Source: a virus. Taken from it: a DNA stretch of 46,920 nt. The stretch covers positions 1 to 46,920 of the IMG/VR virus record IMGVR_UViG_3300005962_000016. The stretch is one strand, 5' to 3'. Under the pieces are notes generated by a model. The model was not told the origin of the DNA, did not search any database, and worked only from the letters and a program-made list of their open reading frames with translations. The translations under genes and the position numbers were made by a program. Shown one piece after another: positions 3,065 to 46,920 of this stretch (its first letter is position 1; each line of letters starts with the position of its first letter).

Positions 3065-3430
3065 TTATTTCACAGTTATTGGTATATATGATATAACCCC
3101 AAATTCAACCATTCCTGCGTTTATTAGATCCTGCAATTCTTGGCTGTTTAGGACTTTCCCTTCCTCAAGTCTTTGTTTTAGTTTTATTACCAGTGCTACA
3201 TCTTTTTCTTGGAACTCAATTGTAATTCTGTTTACCGGCACTTCGTAATTAAGAATATCAGTTAGAAGTTTTGCTGTTGCCTCGTGCCCGATTGCAGAAA
3301 CTACTTCATAGCCTTCGCTTCTTAGCTCGTTAAAAGTTTCTATAAACTTTTGCTTATCTACTATCTCAAACGCATAAATTCCTTCATTGGGCATAATTGG
3401 TGCATTCAACAGGTATAGTTTGCTTCCCAT
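3065..3430 (-). CDS. acrIII-1: AcrIII-1-like viral ring nuclease (DUF1874 / STIV B116 family), type III anti-CRISPR
   Basis: 121 aa, the usual length of the family. DUF1874 proteins of archaeal viruses and some bacteriophages bind and rapidly cleave cyclic tetra-adenylate, the second messenger of type III CRISPR, and so switch off Csm6/Csx1-type effectors. Visible hallmarks: N-terminal YLLNA (Asn9), the SAIGHEAT block with catalytic-type His49, and the C-terminal QRLEEGKVL block with Arg87 and Glu89/90. Each aligns with the corresponding block of STIV B116 and SIRV gp29 as I remember them. The start at ATG 3428-3430 follows AAAGGGGTGATAG and overlaps the upstream stop (TAATG). It sits in a cluster of tiny early genes, as expected for a counter-defence protein needed soon after entry. 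A cellular-type Crn2 ring nuclease is the alternative, but no Cas genes are nearby. Confidence 0.88.
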   Translation of the reverse strand: MGSKLYLLNAPIMPNEGIYAFEIVDKQKFIETFNELRSEGYEVVSAIGHEATAKLLTDILNYEVPVNRITIEFQEKDVALVIKLKQRLEEGKVLNSQELQDLINAGMVEFGVISYIPITVK

Positions 3431-6195: not shown

Positions 6196-6924
6196 TCACC
6201 TCCCATCATTTTCTTTTTGGGATATTATATAATATCTCCATTTATTTTTCAAGTCATTTTTTGAGCAAAAAGATCTAAAACTACAATACTTACATTCCCA
6301 TTCAAAACGAGGAAATCTCTTATAAATACCTTCCTCAAACTCATAAAGATCATACCAATCTCTTTCCACAATGTCTACCCACCTTCTGGCATCTATCTCA
6401 AACTCTTTCATTGAAAGATCATCTTTAGAAATATAGAGCAATCTTACACTGTCTGCTCTTACAAAATAAGCATCAATTAGCATTGCATAGTAAGAGACAA
6501 GCTGAAATATATGAAAAACACTAACTCCGCTGATCGTTGGGAACTTGACAGAATTAACAGTTTTAAAATCATAAAGTATTAATTTATCGCCATCTTGCAC
6601 AAGAGCATCAAGATGCCCTATTCTCTTATCGTCCTCAAGCTCCAGCTCCTTGAAGACTAATAATTTATGTTTTTCAAGAAAGTTCTGCAGATATATGTGA
6701 ATTATGTTCCCTATCTCAAAAATACGAAGAGCCCTCGGAGAGGGCGGATCCGAGGGCATTAAACCTCTTTTAAAAAGCACTCTCTTTAAAAAGCACTGCC
6801 CTGCCAAGGAGACACGGAACTTTTGAGGATGCTTATCTTGCTCATCAATTAGATCTTGCTCTAAGAGAGAGATTATAAAACTATCTTGTTCGGGGGTCTC
6901 AATCAAATAATTATTCCCGCTCAT
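6196..6924 (-). CDS. Cas4/RecB-like PD-(D/E)XK nuclease with iron-sulfur cysteines
   Basis: 242 aa. Catalytic signature of the PD-(D/E)XK fold: GHLDAL with His104 and Asp106, then LYDFKT with Asp119 and Lys121. Cys44 near the N-terminus and Cys211, Cys214 and Cys220 near the C-terminus are positioned like the four cluster ligands of Cas4/AddB nucleases. Such enzymes resect DNA ends. In phages they act in recombination and replication and can interfere with CRISPR adaptation. It lies among phage recombination and replication genes with overlaps on both sides. A Cas4 role in acquiring the spacers at 44.6 kb is possible but not shown, since Cas1 and Cas2 are absent. Confidence 0.8.
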   Translation of the reverse strand: MSGNNYLIETPEQDSFIISLLEQDLIDEQDKHPQKFRVSLAGQCFLKRVLFKRGLMPSDPPSPRALRIFEIGNIIHIYLQNFLEKHKLLVFKELELEDDKRIGHLDALVQDGDKLILYDFKTVNSVKFPTISGVSVFHIFQLVSYYAMLIDAYFVRADSVRLLYISKDDLSMKEFEIDARRWVDIVERDWYDLYEFEEGIYKRFPRFEWECKYCSFRSFCSKNDLKNKWRYYIISQKENDGR

Positions 6925-14655: not shown

Positions 14656-15342
14656 TTAGAACTCTAAATAAAGTTTTTTTTGAAATCTTTTCTCTAAGGC
14701 TTCAGTGCTATAGTCTAATCTAAATTGTTGCCCTACTTTTTTCTCCATTTCTTTTATTTGTTCCCATAATTCAGGATAATAATGATATATTGCTTCAAGC
14801 TTTTTTATGCTCACAAGGGGACAACAATAACATGAGCTTCTTGTAATCTTTTCGTAAAGTCCCCCGAAGTTGAATCCCCTTGAATAACAAAAAGCAAGTG
14901 CTTCTTTTTCCGTAATACGCCACTCTACAAGGGGATATTTGTAGTGGGGTTTAGGTTTAGCACGTTTGGCTTCATCATATGCAATACCTACATATATGAT
15001 GTAGTCATCTTTTAGGCTTTTAATGAATTTTTGTGTTAAACTACTTTTAAATGAGGTGCACCATCTCTTTTTCATAGTAGGAAATCCATATCCTTTTTTC
15101 CCCTTCTGGAGACCTTTCTTGCGTATGTATTCAGAAAAATAATAATCGTAATCAAAAGATAGTTTTGTTATTTTGAGGGGAGAGATGTATCTCTCTAACT
15201 TGCCAATATGTTCATATATTTCAGGAAATTCTTTTGTGGTGTCTACAAATATGACATAATCTATAGGTAATCCTCTTTCAATCATCATTAATAGCATGGC
15301 AGTTGAATCTTTGCCCCCAGAAAGAGAAACTATATGTTTCAT
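14656..15342 (-). CDS. PAPS-reductase/DndC-like family protein (adenine nucleotide alpha hydrolase fold)
   Basis: 228 aa. The ATP pyrophosphatase P-loop SGGKDS is at residues 8-13, followed by FVDTTKEFPE. A RWCT cysteine and a SSCYCCPL cluster (residues about 165-175) could hold an iron-sulfur cluster, as in DndC and related sulfur-transfer proteins. Family members activate or transfer sulfur, or act in nucleotide or DNA modification. Phage versions are common but their substrate is mostly unknown. It is the last gene of the late operon, just after a metallophosphoesterase. No other Dnd protein is present, so full phosphorothioation is unlikely to be encoded here. Confidence 0.82.
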   Translation of the reverse strand: MKHIVSLSGGKDSTAMLLMMIERGLPIDYVIFVDTTKEFPEIYEHIGKLERYISPLKITKLSFDYDYYFSEYIRKKGLQKGKKGYGFPTMKKRWCTSFKSSLTQKFIKSLKDDYIIYVGIAYDEAKRAKPKPHYKYPLVEWRITEKEALAFCYSRGFNFGGLYEKITRSSCYCCPLVSIKKLEAIYHYYPELWEQIKEMEKKVGQQFRLDYSTEALEKRFQKKLYLEF

Positions 15343-36332: not shown

Positions 36333-36903
36333 AGCGCCACTCACCTAATGTTTTGAAGTAAATAGCTAATATCTTGTCTGCTCTATCTGAATATATTCTT
36401 GCTTTATCCCTGTAATTGACTACATCCACACTCATGGTTGGGTCTGAGGACTGGGCATAGTAGTTCGCCAGCTCCTCAAGACCCAGATAGCCAGCATACA
36501 CACCTATTAAATAGTTGTGCTTTTCACTTAAAGGTAAAGTGACAGATGGGATAGTAGAGTATCTTGCCCACATATTTAAGTAATCAGATGGGATCAATTG
36601 GTGGCCAAGATATGGTTGAAAGACCCTCAAATACCTTACCCCATCTGCTATGACGATGCTCCATCTATACAATCTCCCGACACTATCCCATACACTCTCT
36701 ATAAAGGAGATACCATCTGCCCAGCCAGATGGCAGATAAAATGCATAGACACTGGGCTCATAGGTAAGCTGCTCTACCTTGAAAAGAGGGTAGTCCACAA
36801 GCACACGCTCTTTTGCTACTTCTATTAGTCTTTCTTTTTGAGCGGCTGTTAGTATTCCTGCAGTATCTTGCAATATGTCATTCAGGATATCCAGAGGGTT
36901 CAT
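36322..36903 (-). CDS. Head-tail connector protein, 193 aa
   Basis: Located directly after the capsid gene and the 55-aa protein, where HK97 gp6-like adaptors are found. Tyr/Trp-rich helical protein. ATG 36901-36903 overlaps the upstream stop (ATGA), so it depends on coupling. The sequence has no clear motif, so the call rests on order and size. Confidence 0.6.
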   Translation of the reverse strand: MNPLDILNDILQDTAGILTAAQKERLIEVAKERVLVDYPLFKVEQLTYEPSVYAFYLPSGWADGISFIESVWDSVGRLYRWSIVIADGVRYLRVFQPYLGHQLIPSDYLNMWARYSTIPSVTLPLSEKHNYLIGVYAGYLGLEELANYYAQSSDPTMSVDVVNYRDKARIYSDRADKILAIYFKTLGEWRYGI

Positions 36904-42392: not shown

Positions 42393-42453
42393 AATTACTT
42401 TCTGCGTATTGACTGCTTGCCCACCGATAGAGGAAAATAAAAGCCAGAAGGGG

Positions 42454-42939
42454 ATGAATAGATTAGAACAAATTAAATCTCTCGAGGGGGAAAGAACCAA
42501 GGAAAATGAGTTGAAAATCATAGAACTCATAGCAGATGACCTCTCCCATAACTCAACAAACTGCCTAAACTACTTCCTCCAAAAGTTCTGCCACGTAAAA
42601 AATAACCCCGAAGAGTTCTACTACTACTTCTGGACAACCTACACAGAAAAGATCTACGAGCGGGCAGAGAAACCAATAAAGTATTTCGCCCTGATTATGT
42701 GGCAAAAGTATAAGAAAGACCACTTGGAGGACAACACAACAGAAATCTCAGAAAAACTCCTCGAAACACTCCTAATAGATGACTTCGAAGATAAGCTCTT
42801 AGATCAACTATTCCTCCAGCAACTCCTAAATGACCTCTCCCCAGAAGAAAGACAAATCGTAGAAGAAATTCTAAACGGTAATTCCCCATCAATCCCTCAA
42901 TCCCTCAAAACAAAACTCAAAAATAAGCTTGCAAAATAA
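42454..42939 (+). CDS. Possible sigma-like protein, 161 aa
   Basis: One of only two intact plus-strand genes recognised. The C-terminal part reads LLDQLFLQQLLNDLSPEERQIVEEIL, like the start of sigma region 4, and the middle (RAEKPIKYFALIMWQKYKKD) recalls region 2. The recognition helix of region 4 appears missing, so it may be a divergent or anti-sigma-type protein. Start at ATG 42454-42456 chosen, though AGAAGGGG abuts it; TTG at 42409 is an alternative. Its coding strand is C-rich, unlike the purine-rich minus-strand genes. Confidence 0.55.
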   Translation: MNRLEQIKSLEGERTKENELKIIELIADDLSHNSTNCLNYFLQKFCHVKNNPEEFYYYFWTTYTEKIYERAEKPIKYFALIMWQKYKKDHLEDNTTEISEKLLETLLIDDFEDKLLDQLFLQQLLNDLSPEERQIVEEILNGNSPSIPQSLKTKLKNKLAK

Positions 42940-43628: not shown

Positions 43629-43657
43629 GTTATATCATATTCTTTTCCCTTTGTCAA
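43629..43657 (-). promoter_or_regulatory. Sigma-A-type promoter of the 43.5 kb gene pair
   Basis: Minus TTGACA (43652-43657), 17-base spacer, TATAAC (43629-43634). The conserved box at 43667 stands 9 bases upstream, as at 2.6 kb. Confidence 0.8.
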
Positions 43658-43666
43658 TATTTTGCC

Positions 43667-43685
43667 CCAATATAGATTTTGCCTA
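43667..43685. promoter_or_regulatory. Shared upstream box, copy at 43.7 kb
   Basis: CCAATATAGATTTTGCCTA on the plus strand. It lies between the minus-strand promoter and the solitary CRISPR repeat. Overlaps a possible plus-strand promoter (TTGCCC or TTTGCC, then TATATT at 43684-43689). A protein bound here would control both the gene pair and the repeat RNA. Confidence 0.6.
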
Positions 43686-43692
43686 TATTCAT

Positions 43693-43722
43693 GTTTGTAG
43701 TGTACCTATAAGGGATTGAAAC
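43693..43722 (+). CRISPR. Solitary CRISPR repeat
   Basis: A 30-base repeat starting GTTTGTAG and ending GGGATTGAAAC. It matches the repeats of the array at 44595 except T instead of C at position 9. It stands alone: no second repeat follows at spacer distance, and a terminator comes 29 bases later. ATTGAAAC ends are typical of type I-B/III arrays of thermophiles. Confidence 0.85.
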
Positions 43723-43751
43723 CAAAATATATTTGGATCTATAGAGGAAAG

Positions 43752-43782
43752 CGGGGACTTCTAAGGTCCCCGTTATTTTTTT
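43752..43782 (+). terminator. Intrinsic terminator after the solitary repeat
   Basis: CGGGGAC (43752-43758) pairs with GTCCCCG (43766-43772), followed by TTATTTTTTT. Confidence 0.88.
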
Positions 43783-43826: not shown

Positions 43827-43856
43827 TTGACAAATAAAAAGATAGAAAGGTAAGAT
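43827..43856 (+). promoter_or_regulatory. Promoter for the KH-domain gene and mini-CRISPR array
   Basis: TTGACA (43827-43832), 18-base spacer, TAAGAT (43851-43856), about 30 bases before the start codon. The region ahead is A-rich. Confidence 0.65.
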
Positions 43857-43887
43857 AAAATTAAAATTAAATTTGGAGGTGGAAAAG

Positions 43888-44577
43888 ATGAAAATAAGAA
43901 CGAAAGATGGTGCAATTATAACTTATCAAGTGGAGGAGGCCAAAGATGGGGAAATGTGGTTCAACTACCTCGGAGAAGAAAATATCGTAGCTTTAGACGA
44001 AGCAACCTCAATAGTAATGAAGAAGAACGCCAAACTGTATATATTGCAGATTAGCGATATAGATTATTTCGATGAAAAAGAAAAAGAGATAGTGGAAGTA
44101 TACGAAGTAGATAAATACGGAAATTTAAGGACAACCAAGATGGGAATTCCTTTATTGTGGTTGCAAGATCCAGAGAAATTCAGGGCAGAAGTGCTTTATA
44201 GAGAGGAAAAAAGAGGAGAAAAGATTCAGGAAGAACAAGCTTGGGCAGAGATCGGAAAAAAATGGGAAATAGGAAAGGCGTATTATAACGTAGAACAATT
44301 TAATAAAACTAGTCTAGGTTGGGCTATTATTAGATACAACATAGAAAGTTTTGTGAGAGAGGGGAAAAGATATAGAGTAGTAATCTTGCATGATTATAGG
44401 ACCACCAGGGGAAATCACACTACAAGCTTTGTTATTTGGGAAGAACCTTTGCCACAACAACTTACGCTACAAGTGCCCAAACAATATATGGGATTAATAA
44501 TCGGGAAAAATGGCAGTAATATTAAAGCAATACAACAAAAATATGGCATAAAGATTATTTTGCAAGCGCAGGGGTAG
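43888..44577 (+). CDS. KH-domain RNA-binding protein, 229 aa
   Basis: Start at ATG 43888-43890 after GGAGGTGGAAAAG. Residues about 190-229 form a compact KH domain with the GxxG loop GKNG (206-209) within GLIIGKNGSNIKAIQQ. The N-terminal 180 residues are beta-rich and charged and unrecognised. KH domains bind single-stranded RNA or DNA. It lies between the solitary repeat and the mini-array and reads into the latter without a terminator. A role in repeat RNA binding or array transcription is tempting but unproven. Confidence 0.78.
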   Translation: MKIRTKDGAIITYQVEEAKDGEMWFNYLGEENIVALDEATSIVMKKNAKLYILQISDIDYFDEKEKEIVEVYEVDKYGNLRTTKMGIPLLWLQDPEKFRAEVLYREEKRGEKIQEEQAWAEIGKKWEIGKAYYNVEQFNKTSLGWAIIRYNIESFVREGKRYRVVILHDYRTTRGNHTTSFVIWEEPLPQQLTLQVPKQYMGLIIGKNGSNIKAIQQKYGIKIILQAQG

Positions 44578-44594
44578 GGAAACCTACCCCTAGC

Positions 44595-44746
44595 GTTTGT
44601 AGCGTACCTATAAGGGATTGAAACTATAGTCCTCTTCTCTTTCCACTCCGTCTTTTTCTTGTTTGTAGCGTACCTATAAGGGATTGAAACCAGAGAAGGT
44701 GAATTTGTATACTGCAAAAATTTTGGTTTGTAGCGTACCTATAAGG
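44595..44746 (+). CRISPR. Mini-CRISPR array: three repeats, two spacers
   Basis: Two exact 30-base repeats at 44595-44624 and 44661-44690 (GTTTGTAGCG... ending ATTGAAAC). A third, partial repeat at 44726-44746 keeps only the first 21 bases, the usual decayed terminal repeat. Spacers are 36 bases (44625-44660) and 35 bases (44691-44725). No cas genes are nearby, so it would depend on host Cas proteins. A hairpin (GGGGTAGG/CCTACCCC) formed by the end of the KH gene precedes it, with no leader seen. I found no match to either spacer within the window. Confidence 0.85.
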
Positions 44747-44862
44747 AATAGGAGCAAGTTTCTTCCTTATGATCCTAATATAATAAAGAAAAGAGTTAAA
44801 TCTTAAAGTAGAAATAAGAAACCTTTATCTTAACCCTTTAACTCAAGGTAAAAAGTGGTGGT

Positions 44863-45114
44863 GTAGGGAATATATTTATTTTCCTCACAGAATCTTCTTT
44901 AACAGTAGAAATAGATGAAGGATTGGAAAATATTATCATATATATTCCTGAGAAAGCAGTATTGGATTTACGGACAGAATCAGGAATAGGAAAATTTTCT
45001 ATAGAATCTAATGTTTCTTTATTTTAGGAAGAAACAAAGGAAAAAGTTATTCACTAAAGATTTAAGGCAGGAATTGGGAATATATTCATAAAAGCAAGTA
45101 GTGAAATAATTTAA
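44863..45114 (+). pseudogene. Fragment of a DUF4097-like beta-repeat protein
   Basis: An 84-codon stretch in one frame with two internal stops. It reads NIFIFLTESSLTVEIDEG, VLDLRTESGIGKF and GIGNIFIKASS, like the repeated 'toast-rack' strands of DUF4097 or LiaF-type surface proteins. There is no start. It is a decayed host-like gene; its 3' end overlaps the amidotransferase end. Confidence 0.45.
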
Positions 45115-45754
45115 AAAGCTTTTCTGTATCCTCATTATTTAATCTTTCAGGATGCCACTGCACCCCAAGCAAGAAAGGATAATTTTTATGCTCAATTCCT
45201 TCTATAATTTCGAGGCCATTATCTAAAAATTTTGCAGAAATTTTTAAGTTTTCTCCTAATCTTTTAATAGCTTGATGATGAGAGCTGTTCACAATAGTTT
45301 TTTCTTTTCCTAATATCTTATATAGAAAACTATCTTTATTTAAATCTATCTCATGATAAGAATCTTTTTCATCTACTCTCCAGTGAATTTCCTTAATAAT
45401 ATTCTCTCTTTTTTTTCTTATTAAATCCTGATATAAATTCCCTTTGAAATATACATTTATCAGCTGACACCCCCTACAAATTCCTAAAATAGGCAATTTT
45501 TTATTAAAAGCAATATCTAATAATTCAAATTCAAATTTATCTCTTTCTATGTTTATTTCCAAATTATCCTCTTGGATCTTTTCATTATAAAATGAAGGAT
45601 GAATATCCTCTCCTCCAATAAAAATTATTCCTCCAATTATTTTCCAATTAATGTCCTCCTCTAGAGAAAGGACAATATAAGGTATATCAAATTCTTTTAG
45701 CTTATTTATATAATTTATATTCCCTTTATACCAACTTAAAGCAACCTTCCTCAT
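45086..45754 (-). CDS. puuD: Gamma-glutamyl-GABA hydrolase-type class I amidotransferase (peptidase C26)
   Basis: 222 aa, complete. Nucleophile Cys93 in GICRGCQ, and His201/Glu203 in VQWHPE complete the triad; IGGEDIHPSFY is typical of PuuD-type enzymes. Known members cleave gamma-glutamyl-GABA in putrescine breakdown; related ones act on other gamma-glutamyl amides. TATAAT lies about 8 bases before the ATG and no ribosome site is seen, so the mRNA may be leaderless. It is the only intact gene in the degenerate island and looks host-derived. Confidence 0.85.
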   Translation of the reverse strand: MRKVALSWYKGNINYINKLKEFDIPYIVLSLEEDINWKIIGGIIFIGGEDIHPSFYNEKIQEDNLEINIERDKFEFELLDIAFNKKLPILGICRGCQLINVYFKGNLYQDLIRKKRENIIKEIHWRVDEKDSYHEIDLNKDSFLYKILGKEKTIVNSSHHQAIKRLGENLKISAKFLDNGLEIIEGIEHKNYPFLLGVQWHPERLNNEDTEKLFKLFHYLLL

Positions 45755-45840
45755 AGTAAGTAATTATATCACACAGGTCCCTTGAATAGACTTCTTTAAA
45801 ATTGGTAAATTAAAGATAAAAACAAAAAAGAAGTAGAATT

Positions 45841-46920
45841 ATGCCTATCAAATTTGATGAAAAACAAAAATCTTTCACAATACTGCAAAAGACTCAAGGT
45901 ACATAATAAAAATTCTCAAAGATAAATATCTTAGACATAATTATTGGGGAAAAAGAATTAGTAATTCAGATTTTTCTGATGCCCTTCTTGTATCTCCTTT
46001 TGGGGCTAATCCAGATCCTAATGACAAAACATATACATTAGACTCTTTACCTCAAAATATCCTGCATATGAAAGATCAGATTTTAGACATCCTGCATATC
46101 AAAAGAACAAGAGGATAGATCAAGAATTACTGATTCAAGATTTAAATCCTTTAAAATATATAATAGGAAGCCAAAACTTGATAGACTTCCAGCTACTTAT
46201 GTTGAAGATGATAAAGAGACTCAAACTCTTGAAATTGAGCTTTTTGATGAACTTATTAATCTTAAAGTTGTCTTTTTTATACTGCATATAAAGATTATAA
46301 TGTAATTACTCGAAATGAAAAATTAGTTAATTTAGGTAACCAAAAGCTAAAGATCTTGAGAGCTTTAAACATGACAGTAGACTTTTGCACAGACAATTTA
46401 ATATCTTCATATTTGGGAACCTTTGGCAAGAGAAAGGTTTATAGAAAGAAAACCTTTAGCTCATGGATTACAAATTATCGAAAGCATAAGAGGAGAAAAT
46501 TCTCATCAACATAATCCCTTTTTTGCTCTCATCCTAAAGGATGCCAGTGAAAAATATGGAGAGGTTTATGAGTTTAGTCTTGTTTATAATGGAAATTTTG
46601 ACATACTTATAAAAGTGGATAAATTTAATAATATTAGAGTTTCTATAGGAATAAATCACTTTGATTTACGTGGATATTAAAACCTAATAAAAGCTTCCAG
46701 ACTCCAGAGGTAGTTATGACTTATTCAGACAAAGGCTCAGGTGAGATGTATAAAACCCATCACAGAGTTTATAGAAAAAGACTTTACAGAGGAGAATAAA
46801 GAGATAGAAGAAGAACTATTCTCATAAATACATGGAAAGCTACTTATTTTGATGTTAATGAAGAAAAACTTTTAAATTTAACAAAGGAAGCAAAGGAATT
46901 TGGAATAGACCTTTTTGTTC
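45841..46920 (+). pseudogene. Decayed GH36 alpha-galactosidase, N-terminal part
   Basis: Begins at ATG 45841 (MPIKFDEKQKSF). It shows N-terminal beta-sandwich blocks in shifting frames: HNYWGKRIS near 45940-45960, LLVSPFGANPDPND near 45985-46025, RERFIERKPLAHG near 46425-46460, and the junction into the catalytic barrel (ILINTWKATYFDV) at about 46815-46850. Several frameshifts and stops lie between. Continues at base 1. Together the two parts span a full-length gene of about 2.3 kb in which every domain can still be traced. Confidence 0.85.
46800..46920. repeat. Terminal direct repeat, right copy
   Basis: Identical to bases 1-121. Removing one copy gives a circle of about 46,799 bp in which the alpha-galactosidase remnant is continuous. 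Confidence 0.9.

Follow-up and report, generated by a model that had tools for sequence, protein, structure and literature searches.

Solitary CRISPR repeats of viruses (RNA anti-CRISPRs, or Racrs) and viral mini-arrays have both been described previously (PMC10651486, PMC6858448). One of the Racrs, racrIC1, sits 11 nt downstream of acrIC5 on a single RNA (PMC10651486), and Sulfolobus viruses are known to carry spacers against neighboring loci of their relatives (PMC6858448). We analyzed the whole of the viral record IMGVR_UViG_3300005962_000016 (46,920 nt; hereafter the window), in which an initial annotation had pointed to a KH-domain gene between CRISPR repeats and had suggested an undescribed counter-defence or anti-rival module. 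For the repeats this wording proved too strong, since they belong to the known kinds cited above (a solitary repeat unit and a mini-array); what is new is their combination with an orphan gene that has a KH core and is fused to the array by a hairpin. The locus as a whole is best explained as an accessory counter-defence patch with a Racr-like repeat, a mini-array, and a KH protein, an explanation that we put forward tentatively and rate as somewhat short of probable.

Phage Genome and Host

The virus is a circular-genome siphovirus of Dictyoglomus, a hot-spring bacterium, with a siphovirus-like gene set (capsid, portal, terminase, and tape measure) on the minus strand. The window is a circular contig whose first and last 121 bases (1–121 and 46800–46920) are identical; it had been filed as a linear record. 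Among viral contigs, L016–L019 are close relatives of the structural module (66–91% DNA identity), and they carry neither the KH gene nor the repeats. An ORF of 176 aa adjoining the terminase (42409–42939, +) is conserved in L016 and L019 and gave weak sigma-factor/HTH-like matches; it may encode a regulator. The sole cas-like gene of the window encodes a Cas4-like PD-(D/E)XK nuclease (6196–6924, −) and lies in the phage replication/recombination region. In addition, a PAPS-reductase-family protein (14656–15342, −), whose top PADLOC match is SspD (E = 2e-25), is possibly related to DNA phosphorothioation.

Repeat Identity and CRISPR Conflict

The 30-nt phage repeat (array copies at 44595 and 44661) is identical to the CRISPR repeat of Dictyoglomus turgidum; the first array of the genome used here (G011) is at 470870, the coordinate published for this species (PMC5167688). 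Repeats were found at 43693–43722 (one mismatch), 44595–44624, and 44661–44690 (both exact), against a chance expectation of 0. Rfam places these repeats on the minus strand; we kept the plus strand, the orientation that follows from the host leaders and from the ATTGAAAC handle. D. turgidum has type I-B (Csh/Cas5h) and type III-A (Csm) genes, Cas6, and one repeat sequence, and because both systems use this single repeat, one decoy RNA is a plausible inhibitor of the two. All Dictyoglomus CRISPR leaders (L059, L061, L063, L064, and L066) also contain a partial repeat, TTGTAG....CCTATNAGGG, just past the −10 box, some 60 nt ahead of the first repeat; this partial repeat is conserved in five genomes and resembles a leader-borne Cas6-type stem.

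Two further features bear on the relationship between phage and host:

3065–3430 (−): STIV B116-like/AcrIII-1-family ring nuclease homologue, from profile and motifs
36435–36471 (+): protospacer, matched at 34/37 positions by a Dictyoglomaceae RSWP16 spacer

The RSWP16 spacer matches perfectly over its first 19 nt, with TCA on the 5′ side (E = 2e-9), and the array that holds it uses the same repeat as the phage; the match implies that this phage, or one closely related to it, has been encountered by hosts with this repeat. The 3065–3430 protein scores 93.2 bits against AcrIII-1/DUF1874 (PF08960; cut-off 26, E = 1.2e-26) and keeps the AIGH (active-site His) and QRLEEGK motifs of those ring nucleases; its gene lies about 5 kb off around the circle, outside the KH locus. 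This AcrIII-1-family homologue sits in a phage of a bacterial thermophile, and the host clade has type III-A CRISPR. On the strength of the spacer match and the AcrIII-1-family protein, a CRISPR conflict between phage and host is well supported. The counter-defence or anti-rival setting suggested by the initial annotation holds up well in the light of the host-identical repeat, the RSWP16 spacer, the AcrIII-1-family protein, and the Racr-like layout described below.

Solitary Repeat Unit

The first repeat of the locus lies in the following arrangement:

43662–43689 (+): promoter-like site TTGCCC-16-TATATT, 9/12 matches, 3 nt before the solitary repeat
43693–43722 (+): solitary CRISPR repeat, candidate Racr, 29/30 identity to the D. 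turgidum repeat
43750–43774 (+): predicted intrinsic terminator (11 pairs, then ATTTTTTT), ending the solitary-repeat RNA

Racrs were recognized by an identity of at least 90% to a repeat of the host clade, a promoter no more than 250 bp upstream, an intergenic position, and the absence of another repeat within 100 bp. The identity found here is above that threshold, the repeat is intergenic (the flanking ORFs end at 43657 and start at 43888), and the nearest repeat is 872 nt away. The terminator is strong, its hairpin of 11 pairs being followed by seven T's, and with the promoter-like site it gives a layout that, as far as the sequence can tell, matches that of Racrs. Both promoters, that of the solitary repeat and that of the KH gene, are predictions; promoter-like sites are only slightly enriched in the window (10 found, 6.3 expected from shuffles).

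Because its own terminator precedes the KH promoter, the solitary repeat is a unit apart from the KH gene. The gene (43888–44577) does lie between this repeat and the array (44595–44755), as annotated. We propose that transcription of the solitary repeat yields a short terminated RNA, which would mimic the host repeat and occupy host Cas6 and the Cascade proteins in the manner of Racrs, whose inhibition of CRISPR-Cas works by capture of Cas6/Cas7.

KH Gene and Its Product

The gene and its signals are as follows:

43827–43856 (+): promoter-like site TTGACA-18-TAAGAT before the KH gene, 10/12 matches
43875–43879 (+): ribosome-binding site GGAGG, from sequence
43888–44577 (+): orphan 229-aa protein with a C-terminal KH core, ATG start, supported by codon usage
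44455–44565 (+): KH beta-alpha-alpha-beta core (aa 190–226), Pfam KH_1 match

The codon log-odds of the ORF (0.24 per codon) is within the spread of the phage genes (0.09–0.31) and is negative in all other frames; given this native codon usage and the ribosome-binding site, we take it to be a real phage gene. Residues 192–225 of the product match Pfam KH_1 (PF00013) above the cut-off (E = 1.8e-10) at profile positions 2–35 of 66, and the GKNG (GxxG) loop is intact at 44503–44514. The protein therefore shares the beta-alpha-alpha-beta core and the GxxG loop with the KH_1 family, whereas it covers 34 of the 66 profile positions, terminates right after the core rather than completing the KH fold, and joins this core to an unmatched N-terminal part of 188 residues; no family member with such an architecture was found. 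The C-terminal KH domain of the initial annotation is in this sense a core of half length, and its description of the N-terminal part as unrecognized stands, as residues 1–188 gave no convincing match in any library searched. A PADLOC match of the protein to PDC-M15B (E = 4e-4) was rejected, as a shuffled control matched Cmr1 at 0.002. The AlphaFold single-sequence model had a pLDDT of 41 and was too poor for structure search.

No homologue was found in viral contigs (six-peptide patterns, whole protein and C-terminal 70 aa), in phages and plasmids (tblastn, E ≤ 10), in 7 Dictyoglomota, or in 398 genomes of another phylum. All of these searches returned only bare KH motifs, mostly in proteins of KhpA size (85–95 aa), and the degenerate pattern GxIIGKxGxNIK gave zero matches. 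Nor was a second locus with this arrangement of KH gene and repeats present in the viral contigs, phages, plasmids, and genomes searched. The product thus appears to be an orphan, a previously unseen RNA-binding-like protein.

Mini-Array and Boundary Hairpin

Downstream of the KH core the locus continues with:

44562–44600 (+): hairpin of 17 bp, linking the KH stop codon with repeat 1 (its first 6 nt), from folding
44595–44624 (+): array repeat 1, exact copy
44625–44660 (+): spacer 1, 36 nt, best window match antisense to the KH gene
44661–44690 (+): array repeat 2, exact copy
44691–44725 (+): spacer 2, 35 nt, no target found
44726–44755 (+): terminal array repeat, intact over the 5′ 21 nt, with a replaced 3′ end (Cas6 handle)

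A mini-array is understood here as one or two spacers between host repeats with no cas operon, and this is what 44595–44755 contains, with two intact repeats and a damaged third. No similarity to a host leader was found before either the solitary repeat or the mini-array. Gene and array share a strand, with 17 nt separating the KH stop codon from repeat 1, and no promoter was found between the two. The boundary hairpin (−30.2 kcal/mol, z −7.1) pairs the first six nt of repeat 1 at a probability near 1, and the repeat's own stem is almost unformed when it folds. Having no proper U-tract, it may terminate transcription weakly; alternatively, it may shield repeat 1 from Cas6. Transcription of the KH gene into the array, as originally suggested, agrees with the common strand and the short distance; it has, however, to pass a strong hairpin that lies exactly at the entry point. 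Comparable hairpins are absent before the mini-arrays of three other phage contigs (L010, L012, and L014).

These features would also fit if the KH gene were an accessory (moron) gene unconnected with the repeats, with its own promoter and a strong 3′ hairpin terminator; the repeats would then work without it, and the phage end beyond the terminase would be a place that collects both accessory genes and mini-arrays. In favor of this, the KH gene has its own promoter-like site and a hairpin at its stop codon, and it is missing from the related phages and from the other repeat-bearing ones. The 17-nt distance with no promoter in between speaks against an unrelated gene, as does the read-through into the array that is to be expected from a hairpin that has no proper U-tract. 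We consider that an unrelated gene is a serious candidate, if not quite a probable one.

Spacer 1 matches the KH gene in antisense at 25 of 36 positions (44078–44113), a match to this gene that none of 321 host spacers and 2 of 300 shuffles equal, with a statistic that was picked after looking. This might reflect inter-viral conflict, in which the array spacers would be directed at the corresponding region of rival phages and spacer 1 would have been taken from a relative whose KH gene had diverged; the KH gene would then be contested and not partnered with the repeat RNAs. There is a precedent in Sulfolobus (PMC6858448), and spacer 2 of the L014 mini-array also matches a nearby gene. The mismatches in spacer 1, however, alter most codons, unlike those of gene divergence, in a stretch that is E/K-rich, and neither spacer 1 nor 28 nt of spacer 2 has an exact match in the viral contigs. 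We therefore regard an origin of spacer 1 in such a conflict as unlikely.

A stretch of some 3.2 kb (44758–46920 and, across the circular join, 1 to ~1166) is decayed DNA from the Dictyoglomus chromosome; it begins 3 nt past the third array repeat and includes a membrane-protein fragment, a glutamine amidotransferase, and a GH36 alpha-galactosidase remnant. This adjacency would be explained if the repeats had arrived with captured host DNA and were now decaying as an inert relic. Homologous host loci, however, have no array alongside, two of the array repeats are perfect, the solitary repeat is separately terminated, and neither repeat set follows a host leader, all of which makes a relic very improbable. 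As a separate observation, the host gene reads TATAGGGATTGG at the point where the decayed DNA starts, which is similar to TATAAGGGATTGAAAC of the CRISPR repeat. Under the counter-defence explanation, the mini-array would instead yield one or two phage crRNAs by means of the host type I-B/III-A machinery.

Mini-Arrays in Other Phages

L010, L012, and L014, which are unrelated phage contigs, each have a two-spacer array with repeats of this class. The KH gene is absent from all three, and the suggestion that the same gene might be found beside repeats in other phages is not borne out, as no homologue was located. The terminase small-subunit gene is next to or within ~2.2 kb of the mini-array in L012 and probably in L014, and the mini-array of L010 is close to head genes. 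Because the other mini-arrays sit near terminase or head genes, it is the site, and not the KH gene, that recurs, in keeping with an unrelated accessory gene. In L014, spacer 2 (192–227) matches a gene ~0.9 kb away on the same contig (~1127–1162) at all 34 readable bases; given the N's in this protospacer, a mixed population is possible. The L014 mini-array has a Clostridia-like leader. The first pattern match with similar repeat spacing, L013, was set aside as a long host-type CRISPR locus that offers no parallel.

Role of the KH Protein

Repeat identity, order of parts, terminator, KH core, host targeting, and the AcrIII-1 homologue can all be read from the DNA itself, and the phage copies of the host repeats probably serve as RNA decoys or guides. 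We consider it likely that the phage makes repeat RNAs which are processed and which inhibit CRISPR or redirect it; a part for the KH protein alongside them is possible and rather doubtful. If it has one, it is most likely a small counter-defence protein that binds RNA, and its mRNA would continue into the array, in the acr-racr manner. A partnership between the protein and the repeats is favored by distance, strand, the common hairpin, the acr-racr precedent, and the presence of an AcrIII-1 homologue in the phage. Against it stand the orphan nature of the protein, the relatives and the L010, L012, and L014 phages that do without the gene, the gene's own promoter, and the boundary hairpin, which could stop the KH transcript before the array and would mask repeat 1. 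With a single example, partnership is indistinguishable from neighborhood. The more specific role of a dedicated partner, which would bind the boundary hairpin or the repeat stem and gate the array to Cas6, seems improbable.

Comparison with Known Systems

Were the KH protein to act together with these RNAs, it would have no precedent, in the literature that we found, as a protein cofactor of RNA anti-CRISPRs, and a protein-assisted Racr would be a form not described there. Even without a link to the KH gene, a single host faces three elements combined in this phage: the Racr-like unit, the mini-array, and the AcrIII-1 homologue. The solitary repeat resembles the Racrs (PMC10651486) in being a single host-like repeat in an intergenic position, with a promoter-like site upstream and no cas operon, whereas the locus differs from theirs in that a second, array-type repeat set and an orphan KH gene follow. 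The mini-array is like those of Sulfolobus SPV1/SPV2 (PMC6858448) in its two spacers, its host-type repeats, and its lack of cas genes, and in both cases a stand-alone repeat is found in the same genome; unlike them, it has no host-like leader and is directly preceded by an ORF. That ORF, in contrast to the neighbor in acr-racr pairs (PMC10651486), encodes neither a known Acr nor a homologue of one, and yet, as in the AcrIC5-RacrIC1 operon, gene and repeats lie closely spaced on one strand, here 17 nt apart.
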